Shown: positions 3,461 to 29,600 of the stretch, in pieces | Position numbering within the stretch: position 1 is the first letter of the stretch | Layout of the letters: each line of letters starts with the position of its first letter | Assembly (NCBI RefSeq): GCF_008831545.1 | Contig: NZ_CP044523.1 | Coordinates: forward strand, 3,224,001-3,288,000 | Direction: 5' to 3' | Source of the DNA: Halorussus halophilus | GTDB lineage: Archaea > Halobacteriota > Halobacteria > Halobacteriales > Haladaptataceae | Length of the DNA stretch: 64,000 nucleotides | Notes under the pieces: generated by a model | What the model was told of the DNA's origin: nothing | What the model saw: the letters and a program-made list of their open reading frames with translations, nothing else | Databases searched by the model: none | Translations under genes and position numbers: made by a program

Positions 3461-3463
3461 TTT

Positions 3464-4441: not shown

Positions 4442-4446
4442 AAACC

Positions 4447-7343: not shown

Positions 7344-7951
7344 AAGCCAGCTTTAGGGATGAACTCGTCCCAGTCAGCGCACTGAACGAATACGTCTACT
7401 GTCCACGCCGGTTCTACTACCAACGATACCAAGACGAAATCGGCACGCCGTACGAACTCGTAGACGGCCGGTCGAAGCACGAACGGCAGTCTCGCCGCGG
7501 TGGCTGGGTGCGGGAACGGTACTTTCGCTCGAACGACCTGGGCCTCCACGGCAAGATAGATCTAGTAGAGAGCAACGATGAAACCCTAACGCCCGTCGAG
7601 CGCAAACGAGCTGAGAGCGCCGAATACTACCCGAGTGACGAGGTGCAACTCGCAGGCTACTGCATGCTCCTCGAAACTGCACTCGACGAGTCAGTCAACG
7701 TTGGGTACATCTATCTCTACTCAACCGATCAGCGCTATGCGATTCAAATTACAGAGAATCATCGAAAGACCGTCCGCGAAATCGTTCGCCATATCCGAAC
7801 TATGACCGTCGATTCGATTCCACCACTCACCGACAACCCGAGTAAGTGCGAGGCATGTTCTGCCCGCGAGTACTGTATGCCAGAAGAGACTGCAATGCTT
7901 GAACCCGACAAGGCAAAGGGAACGGGCTTCGAGCGGGAGGAACGAAGATGA
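7340..7951 (+). CDS. cas4: Cas4 RecB-family exonuclease with iron-sulfur cluster
   Basis: A 203-residue Cas4, which helps trim prespacers and select their PAM before Cas1-Cas2 integration. Cysteines for a [4Fe-4S] cluster are C21 (in CPRRFYYQR), C170, C173 and C179. The RecB-like nuclease motifs are GKIDLV (D74), VERKR (E87, K89) and QLAGYC near 103-108. The start overlaps the cas3 stop by 4 bp and the end overlaps cas1 by 4 bp. Confidence 0.93.
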   Translation: MKASFRDELVPVSALNEYVYCPRRFYYQRYQDEIGTPYELVDGRSKHERQSRRGGWVRERYFRSNDLGLHGKIDLVESNDETLTPVERKRAESAEYYPSDEVQLAGYCMLLETALDESVNVGYIYLYSTDQRYAIQITENHRKTVREIVRHIRTMTVDSIPPLTDNPSKCEACSAREYCMPEETAMLEPDKAKGTGFEREERR

Positions 7952-8943
7952 AGGCTTCTGAGGGGATGTTTGACGAGTCCGTTATCTTCGTCACCAAGCA
8001 GGGAACACAAGTTCGGACCGACGAGGGTCGTATCGTCGTCTGGGACGTGGATGGCGACGACGGAGAACTCGCATCCTATCCGACCGAGAAACTGGACACC
8101 ATCAATGTCTTCGGTGGCGTGAACTTCAGCACGCCGTTCGTCGCGCGGGCGAACGAACATGGCATCGTCCTTAATTACTTCACGCAGAACGGCAAGTACC
8201 GTGGGAGTTTCGTTCCTGAGCGAAACACCATCGCAGAGATTCGCCGTGCACAGTACGCGCTGTCTGATGACGATGAACTCGATCTTGCGAAGGCGATGAT
8301 TGCGGGCAAGATCCGGAACGCGCGGACGCTTCTCTCGCGCAAGGGCGTTCACGGAACGGATGTGCTGAAAGACCTCGGTGTTCGCGCCGAGAACGCAACG
8401 AATAAAGACGGCCTCCGTGGAACCGAGGGCGAGGCTGCAGAGCGGTACTTCAACAGGCTTGACGAGACGCTCACCGACGGCTGGACATTCGAGAAACGGA
8501 CGAAGCGACCACCTGAGGACCACATCAACTCACTGCTCTCGCTCACCTACGTCATGATGAAAAACGAGGTCCTGAGTGGGCTGCGGCAGTACAATCTCGA
8601 CCCATTTCTGGGCGTGCTGCACGCGGACCGCCACGGTCGCCCTTCGCTCGCGCTTGACCTACAGGAGGAGTTCCGGCCCATCTTCTGCGACGCGTTTGTC
8701 ACGCGGTTAGTGAATCGTGGTGTGATTACCCACGACGACTTCACGGCGGACAATCACCTCGCGGATGAGGCGTTCAAGACCTATTTGTCGAAGTTCGACG
8801 ACTACATGCAAGAAGAGTTCACGCATCCGCACTTCGAGTACAGCGTTTCTCGACGGAAGGCAATTCGCCAGCAAGTGATTCTCCTCCGGAAAACGATGAC
8901 AGGCGAGATGGACGAGTACCACGCGCTCACATTCGATCGATGA
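7948..8943 (+). CDS. cas1: Cas1 spacer integrase
   Basis: A 331-residue metal-dependent integrase that inserts spacers at the leader end of the array with Cas2. The N-terminal beta domain contains the typical VFGGVNFSTPF segment. The catalytic alpha domain carries E160 (GTEGEAAERYF), H225 (VLHADRHGR) and the acidic patch D237/E240 in DLQEEFRPIFCD. Length and motif spacing are normal for the family. It overlaps cas4 and cas2 by 4 bp each. Confidence 0.95.
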   Translation: MKASEGMFDESVIFVTKQGTQVRTDEGRIVVWDVDGDDGELASYPTEKLDTINVFGGVNFSTPFVARANEHGIVLNYFTQNGKYRGSFVPERNTIAEIRRAQYALSDDDELDLAKAMIAGKIRNARTLLSRKGVHGTDVLKDLGVRAENATNKDGLRGTEGEAAERYFNRLDETLTDGWTFEKRTKRPPEDHINSLLSLTYVMMKNEVLSGLRQYNLDPFLGVLHADRHGRPSLALDLQEEFRPIFCDAFVTRLVNRGVITHDDFTADNHLADEAFKTYLSKFDDYMQEEFTHPHFEYSVSRRKAIRQQVILLRKTMTGEMDEYHALTFDR

Positions 8944-9218
8944 CCATGCGACTCGCAATCACCTACGACGTAAGCGACGATGCGAACCGTCGCCGAGTGT
9001 ATCGCACGCTCCAACGGTACGGCGCGTGGAAACAGTACAGCGTCTTCGAACTAGAGGTATCGAAAACCGAGCGCGTCGAACTAGAAGACGAACTTGAAGA
9101 CCACATCGAACCTGCAGATGGCGACCGAATTCGAATCTACCGCCTCTGTGAATCCTGTCTCGACGACACGACCGACCTCGGTGCAGATCAACCCGGCGAG
9201 CAGTCGAACGTTGTCTAA
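8940..9218 (+). CDS. cas2: Cas2 adaptation protein
   Basis: A 92-residue Cas2 that dimerises and scaffolds Cas1 during spacer integration. The first strand, MRLAITYDVSDD, with the conserved aspartate after the tyrosine, is typical. The ATG at 8940 overlaps the cas1 stop by 4 bp; a second ATG at 8946 would remove two residues and start exactly at MRLAI, so either start is possible. It is the last cas gene, 119 bp before the first repeat. Confidence 0.95.
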   Translation: MTMRLAITYDVSDDANRRRVYRTLQRYGAWKQYSVFELEVSKTERVELEDELEDHIEPADGDRIRIYRLCESCLDDTTDLGADQPGEQSNVV

Positions 9219-9337
9219 CTGGCCGAGTCTTCATCGACCTTTTTAATGTCTGTGTACAGCCCCGGTCCACGAAGAGCGGTGCGTGAACGAGCGGTGGAGC
9301 AAGCTTTATTGGCCCTCTGGCTGTATTTTCACCCCCT
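9219..9337 (+). promoter_or_regulatory. CRISPR leader with candidate array promoter
   Basis: This 119-bp gap between cas2 and the first repeat is the leader. The cas genes sit on this side, the repeats end in ATTGAAAC on this strand, and the only degenerate repeat is at the other end. It holds two AT-rich elements: TTTTTAAT at 9240-9247 and GCTTTATTGG at 9303-9312. The latter is about 28 bp before the first repeat, which fits an archaeal TATA box that starts transcription at the array. The promoter call is by spacing only. Confidence 0.6.
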
Positions 9338-12300
9338 GTCGCAGAAGCCAGAAAAGCCGAGAAGGCATTGAAACGATTCCCGTGCCAGCCGTTCTCCGGC
9401 GCGCGGAAGTCGCAGAAGCCAGAAAAGCCGAGAAGGCATTGAAACTCATAGAGAACATCACGGATAGTACAGAGATATTTGGTCGCAGAAGCCAGAAAAG
9501 CCGAGAAGGCATTGAAACACTGAACGATGTTCCCCGCTAGATCGTACTCACCGTCGCAGAAGCCAGAAAAGCCGAGAAGGCATTGAAACAAGTTGAATAC
9601 GAGACTGTAGACTGCGACAGTTGCGGGGTCGCAGAAGCCAGAAAAGCCGAGAAGGCATTGAAACACAACGGCACCGGACGCTTCCAAAGCACCAACGAGG
9701 TCGCAGAAGCCAGAAAAGCCGAGAAGGCATTGAAACGAAACGCAGTTCGAGATTCCCACCGGACTGGAAGACGTCGCAGAAGCCAGAAAAGCCGAGAAGG
9801 CATTGAAACAGTATCGTGACGCCGATGATGAGCGTATTCGTCGGTCGCAGAAGCCAGAAAAGCCGAGAAGGCATTGAAACCATACAACTGGCGGACCTCT
9901 ACAACACCGACACGGGCGTCGCAGAAGCCAGAAAAGCCGAGAAGGCATTGAAACTATGCGCGGTGACTACGTCAGCAGTTGGCCCAAGCTGTCGCAGAAG
10001 CCAGAAAAGCCGAGAAGGCATTGAAACTTCACCAAATTAGCGACGAGTCTCGCTACTGAGTTCGTCGCAGAAGCCAGAAAAGCCGAGAAGGCATTGAAAC
10101 CACACCGACTCACGGAGTTCAACGACGATTACGACGGGGTCGCAGAAGCCAGAAAAGCCGAGAAGGCATTGAAACGAGGAAGCCCGCATGGACAAGATCG
10201 CGTTCAACGTCCGTCGCAGAAGCCAGAAAAGCCGAGAAGGCATTGAAACTGGTAGAGGACCAGCACATGTGGTTGAAGATTGGTGATGTCGCAGAAGCCA
10301 GAAAAGCCGAGAAGGCATTGAAACACACCGAAGTCGAGGAGAACGACGACATCGAGACTGTCGCAGAAGCCAGAAAAGCCGAGAAGGCATTGAAACAAGG
10401 CTTCCACGAAGCGATAGATGACGCATTGGATGCAGTCGCAGAAGCCAGAAAAGCCGAGAAGGCATTGAAACAGACAGATGCTCCGGCGGTTGTCGTGCGC
10501 GGAGAGTCGCAGAAGCCAGAAAAGCCGAGAAGGCATTGAAACACACTCTCGCGCCGAAACTGGTTGCGGACTAGCCGGGTCGCAGAAGCCAGAAAAGCCG
10601 AGAAGGCATTGAAACAGATACACTGTCGCGCTTGGGTGTCGGTCTGGATAGGTCGCAGAAGCCAGAAAAGCCGAGAAGGCATTGAAACCGGTCGCCGCGC
10701 GTCGCCGACGCAGTAGGGGCAAATAGTCGCAGAAGCCAGAAAAGCCGAGAAGGCATTGAAACGCTTCGACCTTGTTCCAGCGAACGCGGACATGGCTGGT
10801 CGCAGAAGCCAGAAAAGCCGAGAAGGCATTGAAACTCTATCAGGGATGCGACCACGAGTGCCGAACACCAAGTCGCAGAAGCCAGAAAAGCCGAGAAGGC
10901 ATTGAAACTATTTGCATGATGTGGATGTGCGTCCGGTGGGTGTGGTGTCGCAGAAGCCAGAAAAGCCGAGAAGGCATTGAAACTGGGTTGCGGATAGTAG
11001 TGAAGCATCTAGGGAGGTTCTGTCGCAGAAGCCAGAAAAGCCGAGAAGGCATTGAAACATGCGTTGGTCTTGACTGCTCGCCAGATGAGCAGTGAGTCGC
11101 AGAAGCCAGAAAAGCCGAGAAGGCATTGAAACTCACCGTCGTCTATCAACGCTACTGCCGCTACTTCCGGGTCGCAGAAGCCAGAAAAGCCGAGAAGGCA
11201 TTGAAACCGAGCGGCGCGGCCAGCATCCAGATTCCTGACGGCCGGGTCGCAGAAGCCAGAAAAGCCGAGAAGGCATTGAAACGACGTGTCGGTTACATCG
11301 CCCCCCTCAAGTACTGGATGTCGCAGAAGCCAGAAAAGCCGAGAAGGCATTGAAACTCGAAGACGCCGATGATGTCCAACAGACAGCGGTTTGTCGCAGA
11401 AGCCAGAAAAGCCGAGAAGGCATTGAAACGATGCGGCTTGCTGTGGAGGGACTACACTCATGAGTAGTCGCAGAAGCCAGAAAAGCCGAGAAGGCATTGA
11501 AACAATATATCGGAAGCCACGGGGAAGAGTTGTTCAATGTCGCAGAAGCCAGAAAAGCCGAGAAGGCATTGAAACAATATATCGGAAGCCACGGGGAAGA
11601 GTTGTTCAATGTCGCAGAAGCCAGAAAAGCCGAGAAGGCATTGAAACTTCGTTATGCAGCCGGGACTCGATGAACAGATGCGTCGCAGAAGCCAGAAAAG
11701 CCGAGAAGGCATTGAAACAGAACTGGTTCTACGATATCCCACTCCAAGACGACACGCTCGTCGCAGAAGCCAGAAAAGCCGAGAAGGCATTGAAACTAGA
11801 ATAAGACGGCGTCCTGTCCGCGGGTCAATGCCGTCGCAGAAGCCAGAAAAGCCGAGAAGGCATTGAAACTCCACGACACGCTCAACGACCTGATGGCCGC
11901 GGGTCGCAGAAGCCAGAAAAGCCGAGAAGGCATTGAAACTGGCCGAGCAGTCTGGTCTCGGAGACTTCGGGGCGTCGCAGAAGCCAGAAAAGCCGAGAAG
12001 GCATTGAAACATCACGCGCAACTCGACATTGAGCCCCAGGGAGACGACGGTCGCAGAAGCCAGAAAAGCCGAGAAGGCATTGAAACGAGCGATGAACCAC
12101 TCCGACGAGGTCGCGAAGGTCGGTCGCAGAAGCCAGAAAAGCCGAGAAGGCATTGAAACCTCGTCGCTCGCGACCTCGTCGGGCTCTCCCGCCCCGTCGC
12201 AGAAGCCAGAAAAGCCGAGAAGGCATTGAAACAGCGTGTAGATTCCGAAGTGGTTGTGCCTCAAATCCGTCGCAGAAGCCAGAAAAGCCGAGAAGGCATT

Positions 12301-13041
12301 GAAACACTTGGTGGCCGTCTCGTGCCTGACTCGTGAGGAACGGGTCGCAGAAGCCAGAAAAGCCGAGAAGGCATTGAAACAGGGTCACGGGGAACCGCCG
12401 CACAAGCCAGCGCGCGGGTCGCAGAAGCCAGAAAAGCCGAGAAGGCATTGAAACTGGAACCTGGAGAACGGCGCGCTCGCCTATTTCGGTCGCAGAAGCC
12501 AGAAAAGCCGAGAAGGCATTGAAACCGGTCGCGTCGTGGTTCGACCTCGGGACGGTCGGGTCGCAGAAGCCAGAAAAGCCGAGAAGGCATTGAAACATAT
12601 TGTGGCCGCGGAGACCGTCGCTCAGATGGACTTGTCGCAGAAGCCAGAAAAGCCGAGAAGGCATTGAAACAGGTCGCCCGGACTCAGGCCGAGTCCGGCC
12701 GTAATGTCGCAGAAGCCAGAAAAGCCGAGAAGGCATTGAAACCGTCCGAAGCCCCTGAGACGTTCCTGCGCGTAGTACGGTCGCAGAAGCCAGAAAAGCC
12801 GAGAAGGCATTGAAACGAAGCTGGCTTCGACACCAACGCCCGAATCAGCCGGACGTCGCAGAAGCCAGAAAAGCCGAGAAGGCATTGAAACCGACGGCCG
12901 TTCACGGTCACGAGGTGCAAAAAGTCGCGGGTCGCAGAAGCCAGAAAAGCCGAGAAGGCATTGAAACACGTTCGACCGGAGTTTCTGTCTGAGGTTCAAC
13001 ATGGGTCACAGAAGCCAGAAAAGCCGAAAAGGCATCGAGAG
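9338..13041 (+). CRISPR. Type I-D CRISPR array, 50 uniform 37-bp repeats plus one degenerate terminal repeat
   Basis: The repeat is 37 bp, starts GTCGCAGAAGCC, has AGAAAAGCCGAGAAGG in the middle and ends GCATTGAAAC. I placed 50 copies by eye, first at 9338-9374 and last full copy at 12931-12967, with no base difference seen. A 51st unit at 13005-13041 has about five mismatches, including loss of the ATTGAAAC end, which marks the leader-distal end. The 50 spacers measure 33-41 bp, mostly 34-38. Spacers at 11504-11538 and 11576-11610 are identical. The core GCC-GAGAA-GGC could form only a small hairpin before the 8-nt handle. Because the repeat is open in several frames, long false ORFs cross the array on both strands. 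Confidence 0.98.
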
Positions 13042-15265: not shown

Positions 15266-15922
15266 TCAGTCGAGTCCCTCGACTATCTCCGACCCTTCCA
15301 GATACGCGAAGCCGTGCCGCTCTGCGTACGCCCGAGCGTCCTCGGGCGAGAGCGCGGCACCCGTCTGGTCGTCCAGCATCTCGCAGACGACCACCGCAGG
15401 CCCCCGATTGGCCGCGTCGGCCAGCACGATACCTAACTCCGTGTGGCCCTCGCGGTCGGCGAGCAAGTTCGGGGCGGCCCGCAAGAGATGAACGTGGCCC
15501 GGTGCGCGGAACTCTGCGGCGAAATTAGTTTCTGCTGGGGCGTTCGCGGCCGCACCGAGTTCCGTAATCGTCGTCGCGCGGTCTTCGTCCGTAATTCCCG
15601 TGTAGGTGTCGCGGTGGTTCACCGTGAGTGAGAACGACGACCGTTCGTCGTAGCCGAGTTCGTGACTCCCGCTCGCGGGGTGGTCGAGCGCCTCCTGCAT
15701 GAACGGCAGGTCGAATGCCTCGGCCACCTCGTCCGAAAGTGCGACGCAGACGAGTCCCCCGGCGTCGTTGCGCATGCGCGAGACTGCCTCGGGCGTCACT
15801 GCTCCCGCAGGATAGATGAGGTCCGTCTCGCCCTCGCGGTCGGCGGCGTCGTGGACTAAGACTGGTCTGCCTTCGCGGAACGCCTCGACGGCCGCCTCGA
15901 CGCCTGCGGCGGCTTGGCTCAT
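15266..15922 (-). CDS. ribB: 3,4-dihydroxy-2-butanone 4-phosphate synthase (RibB), riboflavin synthesis
   Basis: RibB converts ribulose 5-phosphate to formate and 3,4-dihydroxy-2-butanone 4-phosphate, a precursor of riboflavin. The 218-residue protein has the acidic metal/substrate motif [26 protein letters not shown], and [10 protein letters not shown] near the C-terminus, with the conserved His and Glu. An open frame continues far upstream, but the true start is the ATG at 15922 ([11 protein letters not shown]), which overlaps the rbkR stop by 4 bp. The two genes therefore form a riboflavin operon. There is no fused GTP cyclohydrolase II domain, as usual in archaea. Confidence 0.92.
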
Positions 15923-16671
15923 GGTTCCTCCTCGACGTGGACCGTGACGTGGTCGCCGTCTTCCAGTTCGAGTTCCTCGCGCAGTTTCTCCGGGGCGATG
16001 ACTTCCAGTTGATCCTCGTCGTGGTGGGTTCGCTCGGGCGCGATGGTGTGGGCCTGTTCGTAGATTTGGCCGTCGTCGATGTCGGCGGTTGCACCGCCTC
16101 CGTCTCGTTGCCCCTTCGGCGCAACGCAGATCGTTGCAGGATAGCAGACCGCCGGGCCATACGTCCGGTCGTCGTCCTCCCAGCCGTCGATTGGCACGGG
16201 GTCGAGTGCTTCCATCGCGGAGCGGGCGCGAACGCTTTCGGTCGTCAATTCGACGTTGAGCGTGCCGAGGAACGGTTCGTAGCCGAGTCGGTCCTCGAAC
16301 TGCTCCATGTAGCCCGACAGCGAGATGTAGTGGCGGCCCTCGCCCATCCCACTGGTGACGGTGCCCGACAGTTCGATGCCCGCGGGCGTCTCGAAGATGC
16401 GACGGTAGTCTTCGTACTCGCGCTTGAGCGACCACTCGCCGTCGTCGGTGATGGATATCCACTGGCCGTCGCTGACCATCTCGCGCTCGACCAGTCCGGC
16501 GTCGTCCAGTCGCTGGAGTCGCCGGGAAGCAGTCTGATTGGAGGCGTCGAGACGCTCTGCGAGCGCCGAACAGGAGACTTTGACCTCGCCGTCGAGACCC
16601 CCGTCGAGGGCGAGTAGTTTGAGCGCGGCGAGTTCGTCGTAGCCGACCGCGCGCGGTCGCGTCGCTGACAT
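15919..16671 (-). CDS. rbkR: RbkR: winged-helix regulator fused to CTP-dependent riboflavin kinase
   Basis: 250 residues in two parts. Residues 1-95 form a winged helix-turn-helix ([19 protein letters not shown] as recognition region). Residues ~97-245 are the archaeal CTP-dependent riboflavin kinase (DUF120-type), with [23 protein letters not shown] and a [13 protein letters not shown]-terminal strand. It makes FMN from riboflavin with CTP. Fused proteins of this type are known to regulate riboflavin genes, so autoregulation of this ribB operon is likely. A TATA-like CCTTAAACC (minus strand, near 16700) lies about 28 bp before the ATG. Confidence 0.9.
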
Positions 16672-16759
16672 AGGTGGTACTCCGGTCGCGTCCGGTTTAA
16701 GGATAACGGGTTTGGGACGGTTCCCAGAATTGGAACGGTGTGCGATGGAGGGCCACAGT

Positions 16760-17413
16760 TTACGTACGACGTTGGGGCGGCAGTTCGCCCAGCAAATCGG
16801 CTTTGTACTCCCGGACAGCTGCTTTCACGCCGCGTTCGATTTCGGAAGCCGACGCCTCGGTCGCCGCGTCGAATCGGTGCATCTGCCCGAGCGCAGCGAG
16901 CGATTCGAGGAAGTGTGCGAACATCCCGTCGAAGGGTTCCTCGGTCGGGTCGAGGTCCGGATAGTCACGCTTGAGAACCGTGAGTTTGCTCCGATACGGC
17001 TCGTGGTCGAGCCATCCGGCCTCCCACTCGTGGCCGCCTTCGGAGTGTTCGTAGAGGCCGACGATGTGGGTCGCCCGGTTCGCCATCACTTTGAACTGCG
17101 TCGTCCAGAGTAGTAGGTCGTCGAACCCGCCGAGGTCTTTGAGTAGGAACGGTTTGCCGACGGCGTCGAGTCGGTCTGCCACGAGTCGGAGTCGCGCTTC
17201 TTCTGCCTTGCCGTAGCTTCCGAGGACGAAAAACGAGCGGTCGGCCTCGGCGATCGGCACTACGTCGGTGTCGATTGCGCGCTTCAACTCGGCGTAGTCG
17301 CGCCGGTCGATGGACTGGCCAGTAAAGGTCTCGTACTCGTCCAACAAATCGCCCAACAGTTGCCCCATCGTTGCTGGCCACTCGCCGTTCGTTTCGCTCC
17401 CGTCGTCGGTCAC
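16760..17413 (-). CDS. Conserved protein of unknown function, VLGSY family (paralogue of the 20542-21327 gene)
   Basis: 217 acidic residues, no signal peptide or membrane segment. The core runs [19 protein letters not shown], a following helix, a short DLGGFDDLL strand-loop, then [20 protein letters not shown] and KLTVLKRDY. The same pattern appears in the protein at 20542-21327 (YYVLGSYRDPYVRRLRTV, ADYVVGVYEQDAGGEVTELG, SYVLPRDY), so they are paralogues. The VLGSY strand plus the later hydrophobic strand ending in GG-x3-E recalls the alpha/beta fold of TIR or nucleoside deoxyribosyltransferase-like proteins, but this is by eye only. It lies between rbkR and the GH3 gene on the same strand. 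Confidence 0.7.
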
Positions 17414-17474
17414 AGATACCGGAGAAGTCGCCGCAAAGAAAGTAAGTGTTCGGGCCGCGAACGGTGACGGCGCG

Positions 17475-19775
17475 TTATTTGACCGTCAGCGTCGCGGTCA
17501 TGTCGCCGACCGAAATCGTGTAGTCGCCCGAAATCACGGTCAGTTCCTCCTGAGAGAACATGCCACCGGGGACCGTCGCTAAGGGCATGATGGACCCTCG
17601 AACGGTCACGCGCGTCGATTCTCCGGGGGCGAGCGATACGCGGTCGAAGCCGACGATTTCCTCCTGTGGGAAGAGGACCGGGCCGTGGCGGCGACTGCCG
17701 TAGACGGGAACGACGTGGTCGCCAGCGCGGTCCCCGGAGTTCGTCACCGTGACCGAGACGGTGAATTCGTCGTTCGAGGCCACCTTCGGGAGCATCGCGG
17801 GCGTCACGTCTAGGTCGCTGTAAGTGAACTCGGTGTAGGACTCGCCGTGCCCGAACGGGAACAGCGGGTCCTGATTCGAATGGGGCGGACCGGGGTCGCC
17901 GCCGGAGTGGAACCTGTCCGGCGGGTAGTTGTTGTGGAGATTGAGGAGTTGGCCCGTGCCCTCTGGCCACGTAAACGGGAGGCGACCGCTGGGGTTGTGG
18001 TCTCCGAATAGGGAGTCGGCGACGGCGGGTCCACCCATCGTCCCAGGAAGGTAGGCCATCAGCGCGGCCGGGAGGTTCTCGAACACGTCGGTTCCGCGCG
18101 GGCGGCCAGCGAAGAACACGCCTGCGTGGGGTGTCTCGACGCCAGCGAGTGTCTCCACCAAGCGTTGTTGGGCCGACGGGAGTTCCAGCGTGTCGGTATC
18201 GCCTTTCTCCTCGGCGTAGGGTCCTTCGCCGATGACCGCCACGACTGCGTCGGCGCTTTCGGCGGCGTCCCTGACCTTCGATTCGCTCTCGAACGAATGG
18301 AGTCCGGTCGGGACGTGGACGACGTTCGTAGACGAAGAGACTCGCTCTTCGATTGCTTCGAGCGGCGTGACTGCGGGCGGTTTGACTTCACCGGGACCTT
18401 GCCAACCGAGCGTCCACGCACCGGTCATGTTGCCGATGGTGTCCGCGCTCGGACCGGTGACGAGGAGTGTGCCGACGCTGGGGTCTAGCGGCAGCGTGCC
18501 GTCGTTCTTGAGGAGGGTCATCGAGTCGGCGGCCGTCTCGCCCGCGAGAGCGCGTGCTTCGTCAGAGCCGACGACTTTCGAGGCCGTCTTGGGGTCCGCA
18601 CTCGCGTCGTCGAACAGACCGAGAGCTTCCTTGAACGCGAGGACGTTCGTCACCGCGTCGTCGATACGCTCCATCGGCACCTCGCCGGATTGAACGAGTT
18701 CCGTGAGGTTCTGCTGGTACGTCTCGACGGTGTCGCTCTCGATGCCGCCGGCGGGAACCATGTACATGTCGATACCCGCGTTGATGCCGAGCTTGGCCGC
18801 CTCTTTCACGTCGGCCGCGAACTCGTGGACTTCGACCATCCGGTAGAAGTCGTGCCAGTCGGAGACGACCATGCCCTCGAAGCCGAGCATCTCACGGAGG
18901 ATGTCTTCGAGTAACTCCTCCGAGGCGTGGGCGGGGATGCCGTTGAGCGACCCGCTGTTGACCATCACTGTCTCGGAGCCTGCGGAGATGCCTGCGTGGT
19001 ACGGCGGCAGGAGCGTACTTCGGAATGTCCGGTAAGGGACTTGTGCCGCACTGCGGTCGTTGCCGTTCCGTGGCTCGGAGTAGCCTGCGAAGTGTTTCGT
19101 CGTCGAACCGGCGCGCTTGTGGTCGCCCTCCTTCGTCTCGTATCCGCGGACCTTCTCGCTGACCATCTGGGAGGCGAGATAGGGGTCTTGACTGAATCCC
19201 TCGTAGAATCGACCCCATCGCGGGTCGCGATTGATGTCGGCGACTGGCGAGAACGTCCACGGCGTTCCCGTCGCACGGAGTGTCTTGGAGGTGTGTTCGG
19301 CCATCTGGCGGGCGTAGTCGGGGTTCCACGTTGCGCCGAGGCCGTGGTTGTGCGGGAAGATGATAGCGTCCTTGAGGTTGTTGTTGCCGTGAACTGCGTC
19401 GAGACCCCAGACGAACGGCACGTCGTGGGGTTGGGCCTCGACCATCTTCTCCTGGAGGTCGTTAGCGTTCTTCGCCTGCTCGACCGCGTCCTTCGAACTC
19501 GCGTACATTATCGAGCCGGGGAGGTACTCTTCGAAGAACGACGTTGGGTCGTCTCCGAGTTCGTAGGCGGCGACCTGTGTCATCTGGCCGATTTTCTCGT
19601 CCAGACTCATGTTCTCGACTTTCTTCTCGACCTCGGGACTCGGGTCGGCACTTTGGGCTGTTGCCATCCCCGAACCGACGTAGGCAGAGAGCGCAGTGGT
19701 CGTCGCCACACCGCCGGTAGCCTGCATGAAGTTCCGTCTCGATTCGTCGATGGCATCGCTGTCACGCTCTACCAT
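17475..19775 (-). CDS. Secreted glycoside hydrolase family 3 (beta-glucosidase type)
   Basis: 766 residues. The N-terminus has a twin-arginine signal (SRRNFMQATGGVATTTALSAY, R13-R14), so the folded enzyme is exported by Tat. The (beta/alpha)8 domain shows FVWGLDAVHGNN, NRDPRWGRFYEGFSQDP, KHFAGYSEP and VVSDWHDF, where D306 is the expected nucleophile. A second alpha/beta sandwich domain (residues ~420-610) and a C-terminal fibronectin III-like domain (~680-766) complete the usual BglX layout. The likely substrate is beta-linked gluco-oligosaccharides, not provable here. A GAGGT sits just before the ATG, and ATTAAAG about 28 bp upstream may be the TATA box. Confidence 0.92.
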   Translation of the reverse strand: MVERDSDAIDESRRNFMQATGGVATTTALSAYVGSGMATAQSADPSPEVEKKVENMSLDEKIGQMTQVAAYELGDDPTSFFEEYLPGSIMYASSKDAVEQAKNANDLQEKMVEAQPHDVPFVWGLDAVHGNNNLKDAIIFPHNHGLGATWNPDYARQMAEHTSKTLRATGTPWTFSPVADINRDPRWGRFYEGFSQDPYLASQMVSEKVRGYETKEGDHKRAGSTTKHFAGYSEPRNGNDRSAAQVPYRTFRSTLLPPYHAGISAGSETVMVNSGSLNGIPAHASEELLEDILREMLGFEGMVVSDWHDFYRMVEVHEFAADVKEAAKLGINAGIDMYMVPAGGIESDTVETYQQNLTELVQSGEVPMERIDDAVTNVLAFKEALGLFDDASADPKTASKVVGSDEARALAGETAADSMTLLKNDGTLPLDPSVGTLLVTGPSADTIGNMTGAWTLGWQGPGEVKPPAVTPLEAIEERVSSSTNVVHVPTGLHSFESESKVRDAAESADAVVAVIGEGPYAEEKGDTDTLELPSAQQRLVETLAGVETPHAGVFFAGRPRGTDVFENLPAALMAYLPGTMGGPAVADSLFGDHNPSGRLPFTWPEGTGQLLNLHNNYPPDRFHSGGDPGPPHSNQDPLFPFGHGESYTEFTYSDLDVTPAMLPKVASNDEFTVSVTVTNSGDRAGDHVVPVYGSRRHGPVLFPQEEIVGFDRVSLAPGESTRVTVRGSIMPLATVPGGMFSQEELTVISGDYTISVGDMTATLTVK

Positions 19776-20032
19776 ACCTCATTGTGGCCCACGGAGGAGA
19801 CTTTAATCATGTGGCCAGTAGAGTATAAATTTCTAACCTTGCCAACCCATTAGAGGTACAGAGTTAAGTAATAAAGTATTTTCGAGATATTAGGTAAGAG
19901 AAGTTGAATTTCATCGGTTGAGTTTCGAGAGGGGCCCGTACGAGTATCGTTGACTTCGGAATGTCGCGGATTCCGGCGCGTGGGATGGTAGGGTACGGTT
20001 ACGGCACCGTCACCAAACGCACTAGCAGGCCA

Positions 20033-20049
20033 TGTGCAGAATCTGCACA
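20033..20049. promoter_or_regulatory. Perfect 17-bp palindrome, probable operator of the adjacent winged-helix gene
   Basis: TGTGCAGAATCTGCACA is two perfect 8-bp arms around a central A. It is 46 bp before the ATG of the regulator at 20095 and directly before AAGGTTATTGTACC, which could serve as its TATA region. A dyad at this position fits binding of a dimeric winged-helix protein next to the promoter, most simply autoregulation. Confidence 0.55.
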
Positions 20050-20094
20050 AGGTTATTGTACCCGGCCACCCTACACGTACGTAAGAACGGAGCC

Positions 20095-20532
20095 ATGTCC
20101 GAAAGTACACCGACCGCCGGGCGAACGAACCCCGCAGGCACGGACGGCGAGTCAGAGTCCCGTCGCCAACTTCTCCACGTCGCCACCGAGGACGTTGCCC
20201 ACGAGTTGCTCATCGACGTGGCGGGCCACCCCGAAGGCGCGCCGAGCGAGAAGGAACTTGACTGGATGAACCCAGACGTATCACGCCGGACTGTCGGCCG
20301 ACGACTGGAAAATCTAATCGATGCTGGCGTCCTCGAACGGTTGGCCTACGAGCAAGGCGAACAACCAGACGACGCCGAATCCAGTGTGCGGACGTTCTAC
20401 CAGTTCACCGACCGCGCGCGAGAACTGTTCAGCGAAGTCGGCATGTTCGACCCCGACGTGTGGCGACCGGTGTACGCCCGCGTCGAGAAATCGGACGACG
20501 TGCAAGCGGCCGAGGCAGTGCCGCGGCCATAG
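20095..20532 (+). CDS. Winged helix-turn-helix transcriptional regulator
   Basis: 145 residues from ATG 20095 (MSESTPTAGRT); the open frame extends 21 codons upstream but that part crosses the palindromic operator and has non-haloarchaeal composition. The core is a winged helix: LLHVATEDVAHELLIDVAGHPEG, then ELDWMNPDVSRRTVGRRLENLIDAGVLERL, then a wing reaching TFYQFTDRARELF. The layout and end (VEKSDDVQAAEAVPRP) resemble the regulator at 21443-21916. It converges on the VLGSY-family gene at 20542, ending 9 bp from it. Confidence 0.8.
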   Translation: MSESTPTAGRTNPAGTDGESESRRQLLHVATEDVAHELLIDVAGHPEGAPSEKELDWMNPDVSRRTVGRRLENLIDAGVLERLAYEQGEQPDDAESSVRTFYQFTDRARELFSEVGMFDPDVWRPVYARVEKSDDVQAAEAVPRP

Positions 20533-20541
20533 TACGAGGAG

Positions 20542-21327
20542 TCACTTATCTTCCCATTCGGGATGGGTTCGCGGTTTCGGAACGATTCCGACGGCGTCTC
20601 GCAGTTCGGATTCACCGACCCACGGTTGACAGCGGTCGTGTAATTCGAACAATCGAAATTCGTTGAGATGGACCCAGCTGTACGAAACAGTGTCGTTGTC
20701 CTCTCGTTCGCTTACGGCGTCGGAAAGTTCTTGTTTCGAAACGTCAATCCCTGTCTCTTGCGCTTCCACGACCAAGGATTCGAGTTTGTCTGCCTTTTCG
20801 TCGTCAGTAAGGTCGGCGTTGTAGGAGATTGTCATCGCAGCAGCGACGACATCTGGTTTTCCGTCGAAGTTCGCACTCGTCATCCAGCAGTAGTCCCGAG
20901 GGAGGACGTACGATTTGTCAAAGTATGGTGTTTCACTGATTTTTCCGAGTTCAGTTACCTCGCCACCTGCGTCCTGTTCGTACACGCCGACGACGTAATC
21001 TGCGTAGGATGCCAAGAGATGGAATCGAATCCGGAACTCGGGGAGTCTGTCGAGTCCGATTTCTTGGAGATCGCCCATCACGAAAGCGTATGCACCGAGT
21101 CGCTTGTTTAGTTCGTTCTCGACGGTTCGGAGTCTTCGGACGTACGGGTCCCGATAACTCCCGAGGACGTAGTAGGAAGTTTCCGGCGTCTGTAAGTGCG
21201 GTAGTTCCTCGTTTGCGAACCCGAGAATCGCGGCAGTTTCGTCGGGGTCGAGTTCGAGACCATGAAGAGCCTCGTCTACTGCGTCCTCGATTTCGCGTGC
21301 ATTTGGCGGGAGCGAGGGACCCGTCAT
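20542..21327 (-). CDS. Conserved protein of unknown function, VLGSY family
   Basis: 261 residues from ATG 21327 (MTGPSLPPNAREIEDAV). The longer open frame reaches back to 21537 but would overlap the divergent regulator. An N-terminal helical part (1-55) leads to YYVLGSYRDPYVRRLRTVENEL, a second strand YAFVMGDLQEI, and ADYVVGVYEQDAGGEVTELG. Family likeness to 16760-17413 is clear. By eye the core could be a nucleotide- or NAD-handling alpha/beta fold, with the E of VTELG as a candidate active-site residue; this is inference. A TATA box (ATATAAG, minus, 21354-21360) is about 28 bp before the start, so it is leaderless. It shares a divergent control region with the winged-helix gene at 21443. 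Confidence 0.75.
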   Translation of the reverse strand: MTGPSLPPNAREIEDAVDEALHGLELDPDETAAILGFANEELPHLQTPETSYYVLGSYRDPYVRRLRTVENELNKRLGAYAFVMGDLQEIGLDRLPEFRIRFHLLASYADYVVGVYEQDAGGEVTELGKISETPYFDKSYVLPRDYCWMTSANFDGKPDVVAAAMTISYNADLTDDEKADKLESLVVEAQETGIDVSKQELSDAVSEREDNDTVSYSWVHLNEFRLFELHDRCQPWVGESELRDAVGIVPKPRTHPEWEDK

Positions 21328-21442
21328 CGAATCGTGGGTCGTACTACGTTGGCTTATATTTTTCCAATCAATTTGGTTATTTCGGGAATAACCAGAGTGG
21401 TTCACCCAAACTATTATTGCTCGACTCGTACTACGACTCACT
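21328..21442. promoter_or_regulatory. Divergent promoter region with repeated CGTACTACG sites
   Basis: 115 bp between two divergent genes. The minus-strand promoter has TATA ATATAAG at 21354-21360; the plus-strand promoter has CTATTATTG around 21410-21418, about 27 bp before the ATG. CGTACTACG, a near-perfect dyad with one central base, occurs at 21340-21348 and again at 21427-21435. Each copy lies between a TATA box and a start codon, a position suited to repression of both genes by one regulator, probably the 21443 protein. Confidence 0.55.
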
Positions 21443-21916
21443 ATGTCCGATAGCTCGTCTATCAACCAGTCCGGGCCGTTCGAGGAACAACGGCGTCTCT
21501 TCGATCTACTCTCCCAAGAGACGCGCCACCTCGTCATTCAGTACCTTCTCGGTCATCCGAAACATCTCATGTCTCTCGACGAGTTGGACTATATGATTCC
21601 GAAGAGCAAGGCGGCAATTAGCGACCAACTCGATACCCTCATCGAAGCAGGAATCGTAGACCTGTACCGCTACGAACCGAGTGAGAACAAACGCGATTTG
21701 CCGTCGAAATTCTACGGACTTACCAAGCGCGGTGTGGAAGTCCTTTACGAATACAATTACCTCCGTGGCGTCCCCGCAGCGCGTGCATTGTACAAGAACA
21801 CTCGAAAATCTTCGAAAATCGAGCGACACGAGAGCGCACCACGACCCACCCTTCCTGATGCAGTTCGAGACGGACTCTCGATAGACGACGAAGAGACAGC
21901 ACAAGCCGAAAACTAA
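21443..21916 (+). CDS. Winged helix-turn-helix transcriptional regulator, divergent from the VLGSY-family gene
   Basis: 157 residues. The helices RRLFDLLSQETRHLVIQYLLGHP and LDELDYMIPKSKAAISDQLDTLIEAGIVDLY, then a wing with KFYGLTKRGVEVLYEYN, make a typical winged-helix fold. The alignment with the 20095 protein covers the whole domain (DELDYM/KELDWM, DTLIEAGIV/ENLIDAGVL). The tail is disordered and acidic. It probably controls itself and the divergent 20542-21327 gene. Its stop is 1 bp from the convergent taw1 gene. Confidence 0.8.
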   Translation: MSDSSSINQSGPFEEQRRLFDLLSQETRHLVIQYLLGHPKHLMSLDELDYMIPKSKAAISDQLDTLIEAGIVDLYRYEPSENKRDLPSKFYGLTKRGVEVLYEYNYLRGVPAARALYKNTRKSSKIERHESAPRPTLPDAVRDGLSIDDEETAQAEN

Positions 21917-21917
21917 C

Positions 21918-22895
21918 TCAGTCACCACTCACAGGGTCGCGCGCCCAGAAGTCGCTGTCCTTCTGCAACTTCGGAATCCACGTATCCTCTTCTTTCGACA
22001 GCAAGGCAACCCGAGAGGCAGGCACCTGTTTCAGATGCTCGTGTTCGGGCATGTGTTCCTGTACCTGTTCGGCGAACTCGATTACGTCCTCGTGGTCGAG
22101 CATCGACGTGCGCTCCACCCGGTCGCGGGACTCGCCGACGTGCATGTAGGACTTGAGTTCGATGTGGTCCGGGTCGGCCTGCTGGTAGAACCCCGCGTAC
22201 CAGTCGGGGTTCTCGACGTTCTGGCCGCCGACCAAGGTCGTTCGGAGGACGGTTCTGGTCTCGTCCTTCTCAGCCAGCACGTCCATCGTTTCGAGAAGTT
22301 TCTCCCACGCGTCGTCCTCCATGGCTTTGACGACGCGGTCGAACGTCGCCCGCTCGGGGGCGTCCACGCTGATGTAGAGTTGCGTCGGGTCACACTCCCG
22401 GATGACCTCCGGACGAGTGCCATTTGAGACGAGGAAGGTAGTGATGTCGCGGTCGTGGAACGCCTCGATAAGTTCAGGGAGATAGGGATAGAGACTCGGT
22501 TCGCCGTCGAGACTGATGGCGACGTGGCGCGGTTCCATCGACTCCTCGAACACTTCTCTGGGCACTTCGTCGTTGCCACCGAAACCAGAGAGGAGTTTCT
22601 TCTGGAGGCGAATCGAAGCGTCCACGACCGCTTCGGGGTCGTCCCACTCCACGTCCCCGAGTTCGTAGGCGTGGCCAGCGTGGTCGCGCCAGCAGAAGAC
22701 ACACCGCTCGTTGCACTTGACGACTGGCGTCATCTGGATACAGCGGTGGGACTCAATTCCATAGAATATATTTTTATAACATTTTCCTTCGCCCCGGAGA
22801 GCATTAGCTGTCCACCCGCATGTTTGGGCTGCCGTATGATTCTCACTGTGGTAGTCCGGACTGTCTACCTGTTTGGGTCCGTCCGATTCGCTCAT
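21918..22895 (-). CDS. taw1: tRNA 4-demethylwyosine synthase (Taw1/TYW1), radical SAM
   Basis: 325 residues. Taw1 joins pyruvate-derived carbons to N1-methylguanosine at position 37 of tRNA-Phe to form the tricyclic base of wyosine. The radical SAM cysteines are C61, C65 and C68 (CNERCVFC). C26, C39 and C52 match the known second iron-sulfur cluster of archaeal Taw1. Other family marks are FYGIESHRCIQMTP, HVAISLDGEPSLYPYL and FLVSNGT. The start is ATG 22895 (MSESDGPKQV); the longer open frame would overlap the next gene. A TATA-like GTTTTAGCC is about 25-30 bp upstream. Confidence 0.93.
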   Translation of the reverse strand: MSESDGPKQVDSPDYHSENHTAAQTCGWTANALRGEGKCYKNIFYGIESHRCIQMTPVVKCNERCVFCWRDHAGHAYELGDVEWDDPEAVVDASIRLQKKLLSGFGGNDEVPREVFEESMEPRHVAISLDGEPSLYPYLPELIEAFHDRDITTFLVSNGTRPEVIRECDPTQLYISVDAPERATFDRVVKAMEDDAWEKLLETMDVLAEKDETRTVLRTTLVGGQNVENPDWYAGFYQQADPDHIELKSYMHVGESRDRVERTSMLDHEDVIEFAEQVQEHMPEHEHLKQVPASRVALLSKEEDTWIPKLQKDSDFWARDPVSGD

Positions 22896-23652: not shown

Positions 23653-26600
23653 TTAACCTGAAACGGTCGCTCGTGGGACGTTACTCGGATGAACCAGATC
23701 TTTCTGTAACTCGTCCATAATTTCTCCGGGATCAGTTACAGATGAAGCTCCACGAACCGACAACCTCCCGTCTTCGGCCACGAACGTAACTGTACCGGAG
23801 ATGCCAGTTACATGAGTCTCAGGCTCGTTCTGAAGATTATTCAGCCGTATTAGCACCTCATCGTGAGGGTGCGTGTTGCCTTTCGCGGTGATCACAACGT
23901 GCGAAGGATTTCTTTGCTCGAACCACTCTTTGCTGTTTGCTCCGTTGGTAGCCGATCCGTGGTGGCTGGCAGTGAGAACGTCCACTTCCCCATTCACACC
24001 CAGCTTCTCTTCGTCATAGATGTCAGAGGTTATGAGGAATGTTTTCCCTTCGGAGTCGATTCGCAGAGCGAGAGATTTTTCGTCTGCTTGATCGGCTGTT
24101 CCGTAACTGGACTCAGGATTTAAGACTTTGATATCCACACCACGCAGCGAGATGGCACTCCCATCGCCGGTGGAAATATCATCGTCAAACGTCACTCCCG
24201 AGTCTTCGATAGCTTCCTCGGCCGCTTTTGCTTCTCCGCCAGTGACATCGATCTTGTTCCAATAGACCGACTTGACGCTGATATCTTCGTCTTCCAAGAG
24301 ATCGTCAATGTACGCAACGTGGTCTTCGTGACCGTGGGTGATGACCAGTTTGTGGATGGTGCTGACACCCTGCTTTTCGAGTTCAGATTTAAGTAATTCC
24401 TCGTAGCGAGAGGTTCTCGAAGACCCTGCATCAATCAGCATATTCTGCCCCTCGGGTCCCTGCACGAGGATGCTCTGGCCCTTCGCAACGTCGATGAAGG
24501 AAACGTCGAGATTGCCGTCACCTTCAGGGTCATCGTCCGCACGTTCGGTGATTTGATAGGCCTTGATGATGGTTCGACCGATGGTGCGGATGATGAGCTT
24601 CTCTTCTTCCGAAAGCTCGTACGTACGCTCCTTGTACGGACCCTTGCGTTCGACGTCTTCGGGTTCTTCTTCTTCGACTTCCTCTTCGATTTCCTCTTCG
24701 ACCTGCTCAGCACCGACACCTAAGGTTACTCCAGTGAGTGCTTTCCCGAACCCACGTAGGTGATCACCACTGAGCGGACGCGGTGGGGTATCGTACGCGG
24801 CACCGCCCGGGAGCGTGAGTTCCACGCCTTCTGTCGTCGTGATGGTGCTTGCAGCGCCAGCAGTGGCGACTGTCGGCACCACGTACGAGGTCTGTCCTGC
24901 GACGACATCTGCGTCGTACCCGCCTGCTGGCCGTTGGTCGTACGCCCAGTACGCTGCAGAGCCAACGGCGACGACGACACCGCCAGCAACGGCAGCGGTC
25001 CCGAGACTGACGCCGCCGACGATGCTGCCACCGGTTACTGTCCCTGTGGTCGCCCCGGCAGGAGCGCCTGCAACAACCGGCACAGCGGCAACGCTGGCAC
25101 CTTGCACCAGTGACCCCTGAGATGGGTTGACCAGCATCGAGAGTTCGTTCTCGTGGACGTCACTGGCGTTCACGTAGTACTTGTTCGGCGCTTCGCTGGC
25201 AACACCGTGCTGGTAGATGCCGACGAGGTACGTCGAGATGTACTCCGTCTCGCCGTCCTCGTCTTCGACGGTCCGTCGGTCAGCGAGTTGGACGTTGGAT
25301 TCTTTCCAGAACTGGTCGCCGTAGTAGGGGTTGTACGACCCTTTCAGTTCGACCGACGCTAGTTGTGAGCTGTCACGAACCGTCACGCGGACGCGCTCGC
25401 TGTAGTCTTTCTTGAAGACGATACCGGACTCAGCGGCGGTGATCTTCATCTTCGGCGGCGTGTCCTCGGTGGTCGGTCGCGTATCGACGTAGTCGATGAA
25501 GCCGTCACCGTCGGTGTCCGTCGAAAGCGGGTCGGTCTGCCACGCCCGTTCGCTTTTGTCGTCGAGGCCGTCGGTGTCTGTGTCGGCGAACTGCGGGCTA
25601 CTGTAGAGACGGTACGCACCGTCGATGCGAGCACCGAGTTCCTGGCTGTCCGTGAGGCCGTCACCGTCTGTGTCGGCTTTCAGCGGGTTCGCGTAGTCTT
25701 TGGTGCCGCGTTTGCCGTGGATGATGACGTCGATCTCACCTTCTCGGCCGTCGAACAGGCCGTCACCGTCCGTGTCGCGGTCGGTCGGGTCAGTACCGAT
25801 TAGGTACACTTCTTCGCTGTCAGTGAGGTAGTCGTAGTCGGTGTCCGCGAGGAACGCGTTCGTCTGTTCTCGTTTCTCTGCGTCGTCGTCGAGTCCGTCC
25901 TGGTCAGTATCGACTTCGCCGGGGTTCGACGTGGCGTACCGCACTCGGAGCGGAGACGCCGGGTTCGACGGTGCAGGGCCGAGCGAGACCTCTTCGTCGT
26001 CGTCTAAGCCGTCACCGTCGGTGTCCTGGTCTCGTGGGTCGAGCGTGAACGAGTCACCGTAGCCGTACGGAATCGTCCAGCGTTGATTCTCTCGATAGTC
26101 CGACAGGGAGTCGCTGTCGGAGTCCTGATACACGCGGACGTTCCGTGCCTGAATCGTTGCACTTCCCGTGGTGCTGAGTCGAACAGTGACGGTCTCGCCT
26201 TCGAACTGTCCGAGGTCGAGCGTGCGCTGTCGCCACTTGTTTGTGTCTTGGAGCGAACTCAGCGTCTCACCACCGGAGCCGATGATCGTGAGGTTCGCTT
26301 GCTCGTCCGAGCTTTTGTCCACCAAGTACTCCATCTCGAAGTAGACGTTGCCCGTGCCTGCTGGCACGTTTAGCTGCCAGGAGGCTTCGTCGTAATCGGG
26401 TTCGTTCGCGTCACAGGCCGCACCCTTTCCATCACCGTCACGGTCAACTTGCGCGGCGTTCGCCACGTACTGACAGTTGTCCGAGTCGTCGTCGATACCG
26501 TCGCCGTCGTCGTCTGCGTCACAGGCGTCTCCATCGGCGTCACCGTCAGCATTTGCCTGCCCGCTGTTTTCGGTGCTCGGACAGTTGTCTTCGTCGTCGT

Positions 26601-29600
26601 CGACGCCGTCGCCGTCACTGTCGGGGTCTTCCGGTGGGTCGTCACAGCGGTCGTAGGGGTCCGTTGGACATGGGTCGTATTCGTCCCAGGTTCCGTCGTC
26701 GTCCTGGTCACGGTCCGGGCACCCGTTCGATTTGCTACCCCACGTGTCTGGACAGGAGTCGTCGTCGTCGTCGACGCCGTCGTCGTCACGGTCGGAATCT
26801 TCGGGTTCCGGACACCCGTCGTTGGACTTCGGCCCTGCACTGTAGTCACAGTCGTCCTTGTCGTCGGGTATGCCGTCGGAGTCGCTGTCCTCGACGGGGC
26901 AGCCGTTCTCCCCGTTAGCGCCTTCTTTCTCGTATTTACACTCGTCGTCGCCGTCGTGGACACCATCGCCGTCGGTGTCCGGACAGCCGTCTCCGGCGTA
27001 GCCAGCAGTAGACGGACACTCGTCCCACGAGTTGAGCGTGCCGTCCTCGTCTTCGTCACAGCTACCGTCTGGGCCGACGACACACTGAATCGTCACGTTG
27101 TCCGAGGACTTGTTTTTCGTTCGTGTTCTCCTCGTTTTGTTTCGGGTCGTATTCGTCGAGTTGACCTCCGTAATCGAAGCGGTACTCAGCGTGGACGTAC
27201 CGGCGTCTTCACCGACAGAGATCGTGTTGTCCGCGCCCTCACACGAGCCAGTGCAGTCGAGCGAACTGTCGTTGAACTCTCGGGGTTTCTTCTTCTCGAC
27301 CGAAATGGCGTCTTCCCAGGCGGTCTTGTTCAGCACCGTCACGTAACCACCGGACTCGACGCTCGCACTCGCGGTCCTGTTCTCCACGTCCACGTCTGTT
27401 TTGACGGGATGCCAGGCTTGCTTGGTGCTCCCGTTCCAAACGTAGACCGTCAAGTCCTCGGTTCGCGTCTCGGTAGCGTCGGTCTTGACGGGAACGGTGA
27501 CGTTCGTGGAGTCAACTCCACTGTCGTTTTTCGTCGCGTTGCCGCTCTTAGTATCGACCAGCACAGTCGGTCCAGCACTTGCGTCCGTACCGTTGTGATA
27601 CGCGGGCTGGTGTTCGACAGTCGTATTGCTCGCTGCATTACCGTCTCCAGTCACCGACAGCGTAACACCGCTCTCCTCGTCGGTCTTGGCGGTCGTGTAC
27701 GTCTCGTTGCCGTCGAGAGTTCCGTCACCGTCCGTGTCCGCGAGGAGTGGGTCCGCGCCCACGTTTAGTTCTGCGAAGTCAGTGAGACCGTCGTCGTCGG
27801 TGTCCACGACGAGTGGGTTCGTGCCGAGATTACGTTCTCGACCGTCGAGGACACCGTCGCCGTCCGTGTCGTTTATCGCGAGTTCTGTCGCGGTAGTGGC
27901 CTCTCGGTTGTTCGTGAGTCCGTCGGCGTCGAGGTCGTCGGCACCGTCGTCGAGACCATTACCGTTCGAGTCAGCGACAGTCGCGTTGAAGGCCGAATAC
28001 TCGATTTCGACCGAATCGTTGAGGCCGTCGTCGTCAGTGTCAGTCGCGAGTGGATTCGTGCCGAGGTCACGCTCTTCGCTATCGGTCAACCCGTCTGCAT
28101 CGGTGTCGGCAGCCAGTGGGTCGGTGCCCAGGTCGGCCTCGGTGCCATCGCTGAGGTTGTCCGTGTCCGTGTCGTTCACCAACGGCATCGTGCCAGCGGC
28201 CTGCTCGTCGACGTTGGACAGGCCGTCTGCATCCAAGTCCTCGTTCGCGTCACTGGTACCGTCACCATCCGAGTCGGTGGCTCGCGGATCGAGGTCGCTG
28301 AACGCGATTTCGAACGAATCGGTCAGTCCGTCGCTATCGGTGTCGGAACTGAACGGGTCGAGGTCCGCGTGCTGTTCGAACGCAGTGTTGAGACTGTCGT
28401 TGTCGAAGTCTTCGCGTCCGTCCGGACGGTCGTTGTCGGCTTCGCTGCTTGCAGTCTGGTTCGAGTCGCTGTCCGGGTTCAGCGGGGCAGTCCCAGTAAC
28501 CTGCATCTCGTAGCCGTCGAGCAATCCGTCGCTGTCGGTGTCGTTCAGGATGGGATTCGTGCCGAGCGTCTGCTCACGGAGATTCGTTAGGTTGTCGCCG
28601 TCGAGGTCCTCTGCGGCGTCGCTGACGTCGTTTCCGGCTTCGGTGGTGTTCGTTGCGGTAGAGTTACTGTCGGTGAGCGTCGGGTTCGTCTTCGTGGCGT
28701 TGACCTCGAAGGAGTCGGTCAGACCATCACCGTCTGTGTCTGCGGAAAGTGGGTTCGTCCCGTATCGCTGTTCGAGGCGATTTGGCAGTCCGTCCCCGTC
28801 GAAGTCCTCGCGCGCGTCTGCGAGACCGTCTCCGTCAGAGTCGTTTTCGAGTGGGTCGAGTGGGCCGTACTTGTACTCGAAACCATCACGGAGCAGGTCG
28901 TCGTCGGTGTCTGGGTCGAAGGGGTTCGTCTGTGCGTCGTACTCCAGTGACGTGATGAGGTCGTCCGCGTCGAAGTCTTCACGGCCGTCGAAGCGGTCGT
29001 TTCCTGCTTCGTCCGGTCGGGTTCGCTTCGAGTCGCTGTCGGGGACTATCGGATTCGTCTCCGTCGTGTTCACCTCGTAGGCGTCCGTGAGGTTGTCTGT
29101 GTCGGTATCAGCAGCGAGTGGGTTCGTGCCGTACTGTTGTTCGAGGACGTTCGGCAGTGTCTCGTCGTCGGGGTCTTCTCGGTCGTCGCGGATGCCATCT
29201 TGGTCCGTGTCTGCCTGCAACGGCTCGATAGTGTCGTAGGAATGTTCGAACCCGTCGAGCAGTCGGTCGTCGTCGGTGTCTGGGTCGAAGGGGTTGGTTG
29301 CGACGACTGCTTCGATAGCCGTCTGTAGTGCGTCTTCGTCGAAATCTTCGGCTCCGTCGCTGATGCCGTTCGACGCTTCGTTCGTCGCAGTACGACTGGA
29401 GTTACTGTCGGCCGTGAGTGGGTTCGTGAGTGTGACGTTCACCTCGTAGGCGTCCGTGAGGTTGTCTGTGTCAGTATCTGCAACGAGTGGATGGGTGTCG
29501 TAGTGCTGTTCGAGGACGTTCGGCAGCGTCTCGTTGTCAGGGTCTTCTCGGTCGTCGCGGACGCCATCGTCGTCCGTGTCAGCGGTGATCGGTGAGACCG

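Follow-up and report, generated by a model that had tools for sequence, protein, structure and literature searches.

What do two related genes of Halorussus halophilus that lie close to a CRISPR locus code for, and do they belong with it? The genes are found in a stretch of 64,000 nucleotides (assembly GCF_008831545.1, contig NZ_CP044523.1, positions 3,224,001 to 3,288,000; hereafter called the window). A preliminary description had regarded their products as two paralogues of an unrecognised family, possibly TIR-like or nucleoside deoxyribosyltransferase (NDT)-like, with a candidate catalytic glutamate and a potential role in defence next to the CRISPR locus. Our analyses show that each of these genes forms, together with a gene for a predicted winged helix-turn-helix (wHTH) regulator, a two-gene unit whose components evolve together. 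The features of the two units are as follows.

16760-17413, minus strand: family protein 1, 217 residues, GTG start; predicted NDT/TIR-like core at about residues 58-156 and candidate catalytic residue E131 (sequence and model)
20095-20532, plus strand: wHTH regulator of 145 residues, cognate to family protein 1
20542-21327, minus strand: family protein 2, 261 residues, ATG at 21327; long subclade (sequence and tree)
21443-21916, plus strand: wHTH regulator of 157 residues, cognate to and divergent from family protein 2

Two members of a haloarchaeal protein family

The two proteins are homologous, with 37% identity over 108 residues in a single BLASTP comparison (E=2e-14), and the aligned region spans the motifs VLGSY, DL, VG-x-YE...GG...E and VL-x-RDY that had been used to group them. 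As homology at this E value is well above chance, the initial observation of a shared family was right. The family was also rightly called unrecognised. We found no credible Pfam, NCBIfam, PADLOC or PHROG family for either protein, the Pfam search being empty at E<=1, and a Pfam scan of 26 diverse members similarly yielded no credible family, with the NDT family PF05014 unmatched at E<=5. A search of the literature returned nothing specific to the pair of genes, and this family of pairs is apparently undescribed so far.

The members of the family are ~180-280 residues long. In a phylogenetic tree the window proteins fall in separate clades, the 217-residue protein with short members and the 261-residue protein in a long subclade characterized by an insertion of ~50 residues after the RDY motif.

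Pairing with a winged-helix regulator

Of 102 open reading frames (ORFs) of the family, 100 were scored as divergent from a gene of one wHTH family, one as tandem and one was assigned to the wrong neighbour; among the 100 is an ORF (locus L162) whose sole wHTH match is weak and lies at 1.6 kb, and a disrupted family copy was entered as two of the ORFs counted. The wrongly assigned ORF is the second gene of the window, whose true partner is divergent at a distance of 115 bp. Most divergent spacers measure ~100-160 bp, and the genes beyond the pair vary among neighbourhoods, with no other conserved gene adjoining it.

The partner proteins have a common architecture, H-P...S-x-x-E-L-x-Y...P followed by a C-terminal E-K-x-x-x-I...E-x-x-P-R-P segment. 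They gave only sub-threshold matches to HTH_5, HTH_20, HxlR and Csa3, with no Pfam model above its cut-off, and PGAP labels several of them 'ArsR family', 'wHTH' or 'HTH'. The regulator at 21443-21916 is C-terminally shorter, at 157 residues, than most of its close orthologues (217-373 residues). The C-terminal extension of these long forms, which have no Pfam match, may hold further winged-helix-like segments.

A reciprocal search of 14 genomes with a profile of the regulator detected three wHTH hits in the source genome, which has exactly three genes of the family. A genome of the same genus devoid of the family gave zero hits, and the counts closely agree in the other genomes searched. In addition, the distance matrices of family proteins and regulators are strongly correlated over 92 pairs (r=0.908; the highest value reached in permutations is 0.077). 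The family gene and the wHTH gene thus form a unit and have evolved together.

Palindromes in the shared spacers

We analysed 73 divergent spacers for dyads. CCA-N3-TGG was counted 30 times where dinucleotide shuffles predict 1.9, with the N2, N4 and N5 spacings of the same half-sites at background level; because related spacers are not independent, we take this excess as support and not as a probability. The window harbours the following elements.

20033-20049: palindrome TGTGCA-N5-TGCACA, probable operator, in front of the wHTH gene at 20095-20532
21364-21376: CCAA-N5-TTGG, a further and weaker dyad next to the TATA-like box of family gene 2 (read directly from the sequence; a putative element)
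21390-21402: dyad AACCAGAGTGGTT, probable operator, located between the divergent genes and immediately upstream of TATTATT, the TATA-like element of the wHTH gene

The AACCAGAGTGGTT pattern alone is common enough, with four matches in the window against 2.4 expected. TGTGCA-N5-TGCACA is present as a single copy in the 4.45-Mb genome, and an identical palindrome is found in the corresponding spacer of a sister genome. The spacers of two pairs carried by Haladaptatus plasmids (L112 and L113) contain yet another palindrome, ATGTTGG-N6-CCAACAT, unlike those of other clades; hence, the operators seem to be clade-specific. Such clade-specific palindromes suggest autoregulation by the partner wHTH protein.

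Predicted fold and candidate active site

In the AlphaFold2 model of the 217-residue protein, built with 15 sequences, residues 58-156 make up a clean beta1-alpha1-beta2-alpha2-beta3-alpha3-beta4 core. A Foldseek search of the PDB ranked human DNPH1 (also called Rcl, a 2'-deoxynucleoside 5'-phosphate N-hydrolase) first (probability 0.98), the BcThsB TIR domain second (0.99) and the NDT 4mcj third (0.96), with SPARTA TIR-APAZ and more DNPH1, NDT and TIR chains close behind. In a viral library, the named matches included several NDTs, one DUF4406 protein and one SLOG protein. VIA gave Z scores of 8.6 for a TIR domain, 8.0 for an NDT and ~7 for MilB and DNPH1. The match is suggestive rather than decisive, because Z scores of 7-8 are also reached by unrelated Rossmann-like folds, LacI/PurR and flavodoxin domains among them.

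Sequence conservation, which does not depend on the model, singles out E122, E131, G133 and R149 (numbering of family protein 1): all four are unchanged in each of 91 non-redundant sequences. In all of them E131 and G133 make up an E-x-G motif after strand 3, at the position of the catalytic Glu in the NDT/DNPH1 superfamily, and the spacing in AD (or similar)-x15-E-x-G is 16. The latter equals that of seven haloarchaeal DNPH1-like proteins; for one of these, a match to solved Rcl/DNPH1 was confirmed at E ~1e-36. Further features in common with DNPH1-like proteins are a G-S pair after strand 1 (67 of 91 sequences) and an Arg that closes strand 4. The candidate catalytic glutamate E131 lies at the exact spacing of the DNPH1 nucleophile, E104. 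Profile-profile comparison with NDTs placed the alignment on AD...E-x-G, above the shuffled controls that were run for the NDT subset.

A number of results weigh against this assignment. Model confidence is low, with a mean pLDDT (predicted local distance difference test) of 54.6 and a pTM (predicted template modelling score) of 0.46; the 261-residue query gave a pLDDT of 45.9. The best Foldseek matches in the PDB have E values of 3e-3 and none is <0.001, and the VIA scores of the unrelated domains cited above have to be counted here too. PF05014 fails to detect the family and finds other genes when the genome is searched with it, and the TIR profile PF13676 does not detect it either. The profile-profile scores against NDTs are weak (Prob 2.5-6, P 0.006-0.018), as are those against DNPH1 and TIR. 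At the site of the general-acid Asp of DNPH1/NDT (D80 in DNPH1), which precedes the Asp of the strand-3 AD by eight residues, the family has Phe in 81 of 91 sequences and Ile, Tyr or Leu in the others, never Asp. Catalysis may thus be absent or different. Finally, gene context points to no substrate.

The initial proposal of a TIR/NDT-like fold therefore holds in part: DNPH1, TIR and NDT structures are the top Foldseek matches, set against a low-confidence model and negative PF05014 and PF13676 searches. We consider the NDT/TIR-like fold to be supported with moderate confidence by the predicted core; fold and active-site identity are supported, not proven. The family shares with DNPH1/Rcl and its haloarchaeal orthologues the predicted beta-alpha Rossmannoid core, the G-S after strand 1, the identical AD-x15-E-x-G spacing and the strand-4-end Arg, and DNPH1 is its best Foldseek match in the PDB. 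In contrast with DNPH1, it has Phe in place of the general-acid Asp, extra N-terminal helices and an extra region at the C-terminus; its profile match is no more than weak, and it is paired with a wHTH gene. With the NDT family it has in common the predicted core and the E-x-G after strand 3, whereas it is devoid of the catalytic Asp, is missed by PF05014 and scores weakly in profile-profile comparison. With TIR domains (BcThsB, SPARTA TIR, PF13676) it would share a Rossmannoid core and a conserved Glu carried by the helix that follows strand 3; TIR chains come near the top in Foldseek and VIA, but so do those of NDTs. The family differs from TIR domains in being missed by PF13676, in lacking a conserved third partner gene and in its wHTH pairing.

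Kinship with IspH/LytB, indicated by a weak sequence match in the PDB (E 0.06), was rejected, as it concerns a single beta-alpha-beta segment. We also came across a second haloarchaeal family (L203, L204-L207, L212 and L215) of ~205 residues, with C-terminal Cys pairs and a match to a TIR model. Several of its members are partly matched by PF05014, and it is possibly another TIR/NDT intermediate family.

Distribution of the family

Relatives were found in 181 and 190 of 292 sampled Halobacteria genomes, depending on which window protein served as the query. Their distribution is patchy, each genome having 0-6 copies. When 393 genomes of the phylum were searched with a profile, a single weak match came from outside Halobacteria (G454); we rejected it because it is an acetyltransferase-like ORF that aligns only around the E-x-G segment.

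Members of the family also occur in plasmid records (69 and 95, per query protein), including Halobacterium salinarum pNRC200 and Haloarcula marismortui pNG600. Among the plasmid members listed, all are labelled hypothetical or are unannotated, except one under an aminopeptidase label. The phage records searched contain no match to the family, and four scans of viral contigs revealed no relative; a prophage or viral origin was rejected on these grounds.

Apparently disrupted copies of the family gene lie beside wHTH genes in two places (L078, 8040-8946; G024, contig 7, near 39220-41648). Such copies suggest that the family gene is dispensable or at times selected against.

Possible function of the pair

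The explanation to which we lean, at slightly better than even confidence, is that the window contains paralogous modules of a haloarchaeal accessory system, each made up of a divergent nucleotide-N-glycosidase-like protein and a dedicated, autoregulating wHTH protein. The family protein would have an NDT/TIR-like Rossmannoid core and its partner would be a cognate ArsR-like winged-helix regulator. Most likely, the latter binds the palindromes of the shared ~100-160 bp spacer and represses or tunes both promoters. The de-repressed core protein would then most likely bind and hydrolyse an N-glycosidic bond of the nucleotide type, as DNPH1, MilB or NADases do, with E131 at the nucleophile position and with the ligand facing the G-S loop, E122 and R149. 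Its biological role would be an accessory one in stress or defence rather than in housekeeping.

The layout resembles that of classic ArsR-type regulator-target pairs, with a divergent wHTH gene, a short spacer and palindromes near the promoters. It differs from them in that no metal or known ligand is associated with it and that no Pfam model scores above its cut-off for the regulators.

The protein might alternatively be a non-catalytic Rossmannoid sensor of a nucleotide-like signal that acts as a co-regulator of the wHTH protein, the two forming a split one-component regulator. We regard this as a tentative and rather unlikely explanation. The near one-to-one pairing and co-evolution of the two proteins, the loss of the DNPH1 general-acid Asp, the location of the palindromes at the promoters of the two genes themselves (one palindrome being present nowhere else in the genome) and the lack of any other conserved adjoining gene would all be in keeping with it. 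However, the invariant E122, E131 and R149 resemble a preserved active site, a divergent regulator and target are the ordinary layout of an enzyme and its repressor, and no fused form was seen.

TIR domains are NADases of defence systems. The family protein could be viewed as a TIR-like, NAD-cleaving anti-virus effector silenced by the wHTH repressor, in a small abortive-infection or toxin-antitoxin-like system. The presence of BcThsB and SPARTA TIRs among the best fold matches is consistent with this idea, as are the patchy occurrence in 0-6 copies per genome, often on plasmids, and the great rarity of intact family genes without a nearby wHTH gene. NDT-like and winged-helix proteins are moreover both named as gene classes of retrons (PMC12548924). 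Retrons with an NDT-like effector combine an NDT-like domain with a winged-helix DNA-binding protein; in contrast, the present system consists of two separate, divergent genes with palindromes in their spacer, and no conserved adjoining reverse transcriptase or sensor gene was seen in the annotated and predicted neighbourhoods, no dedicated reverse transcriptase search having been made. Neither family protein matches a PADLOC defence model, and no one defence family accounts for more than three of 104 neighbouring proteins. The scans made revealed no virus or phage copies, and toxin-antitoxin pairs are usually co-directional. We therefore find this explanation improbable, while the module itself may yet serve in defence.

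Organization of the window locus and the CRISPR neighbourhood

The window contains other genes around the two modules, as follows.

15266-15922: ribB, a housekeeping-type riboflavin gene, between the CRISPR locus and the family genes
15919-16671: ribK, a housekeeping-type riboflavin gene, between the CRISPR locus and the family genes
17475-19775, minus strand: gene for a GH3 family glycoside hydrolase with a Tat-like signal, between family gene 1 and its regulator

The preliminary description had placed one family gene between two related winged-helix genes, which is true of the wHTH genes at 20095-20532 and 21443-21916, both on the plus strand. In a sister genome (G162, locus L089), ribB, ribK and the family gene are followed directly by the divergent regulator gene at a distance of 259 bp. 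The window regulator at 20095-20532 is 75-78% identical to that of the sister genome, and in the window the GH3 gene splits it from the family gene at 16760-17413. The pairing of 21443-21916 with 20542-21327 is seen likewise in Halorussus halobius, H. ruber and H. aquaticus (L065, L066 and L074). As gene order in the sister genome and the pairings in Halorussus assign each regulator, the arrangement corresponds to two stacked modules with separate cognate regulators. The GH3 gene is an insertion or rearrangement outside the conserved module. The locus illustrates how a stack of two modules can pass for a single gene with a regulator on either side when another gene interrupts one of them.

In each Halorussus genome examined (L065, L066, L074 and L089), at least one of the two modules occupies the interval between ribK and a wyosine radical-SAM gene (15919-22652 in the window), which for this reason looks like a recurrent insertion spot. 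A shared operon with ribK-ribB was dropped as a functional clue, as it was seen in one sister genome only. Further along, positions 23653-31227 code for a protein of 2524 residues with many Asp-rich, calcium-binding-like repeats and, judged by eye, an apparent C-terminal metallo-beta-lactamase-like domain.

The CRISPR-Cas locus (455-13000) is of type I-D. Its cas genes (Cas10d, Csc2, Csc1, Cas3d, Cas4, Cas1 and Cas2) span 455-9218, and an array of ~51 repeats starts at 9338. Two adjacent repeat-spacer units of the array are identical (11467-11610). A simple repeat scan found no CRISPR-like array in any related locus, orthologous Halorussus loci included, and no cas gene recurs among the 104 neighbouring proteins. 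The suggested link with CRISPR is thus not borne out, the conserved neighbour of the family genes being their cognate wHTH genes, and nearness to the CRISPR locus is best read as a coincidence. The hypothesis that the family genes are functional accessories of this locus rests on a distance of ~4-8 kb from the array in the source genome alone, and with ribK and ribB intervening and no recurrence across related loci, we rejected it as very improbable indeed. In the explanation that we prefer, the two modules are stacked in the interval between the wyosine radical-SAM gene and ribK-ribB.

Significance for haloarchaea

About two thirds of the sampled haloarchaeal genomes carry at least one such pair, and the enzyme-like half, where annotated, is merely called 'hypothetical protein'. 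A bolder proposal, which we consider doubtful at present, is that of a haloarchaea-wide, mobile two-gene system in which a divergent NDT/TIR-like nucleotide hydrolase with an altered active site would be released by its dedicated wHTH repressor, possibly in an anti-virus or stress response that depletes NAD or nucleotides. The minimal two-gene layout could be put to the test without delay in haloarchaea amenable to genetics. Should the active-site assignment be right, nucleotides or NAD would be the targets of a large class of archaeal accessory genes, controlled by transcriptional regulators of their own.

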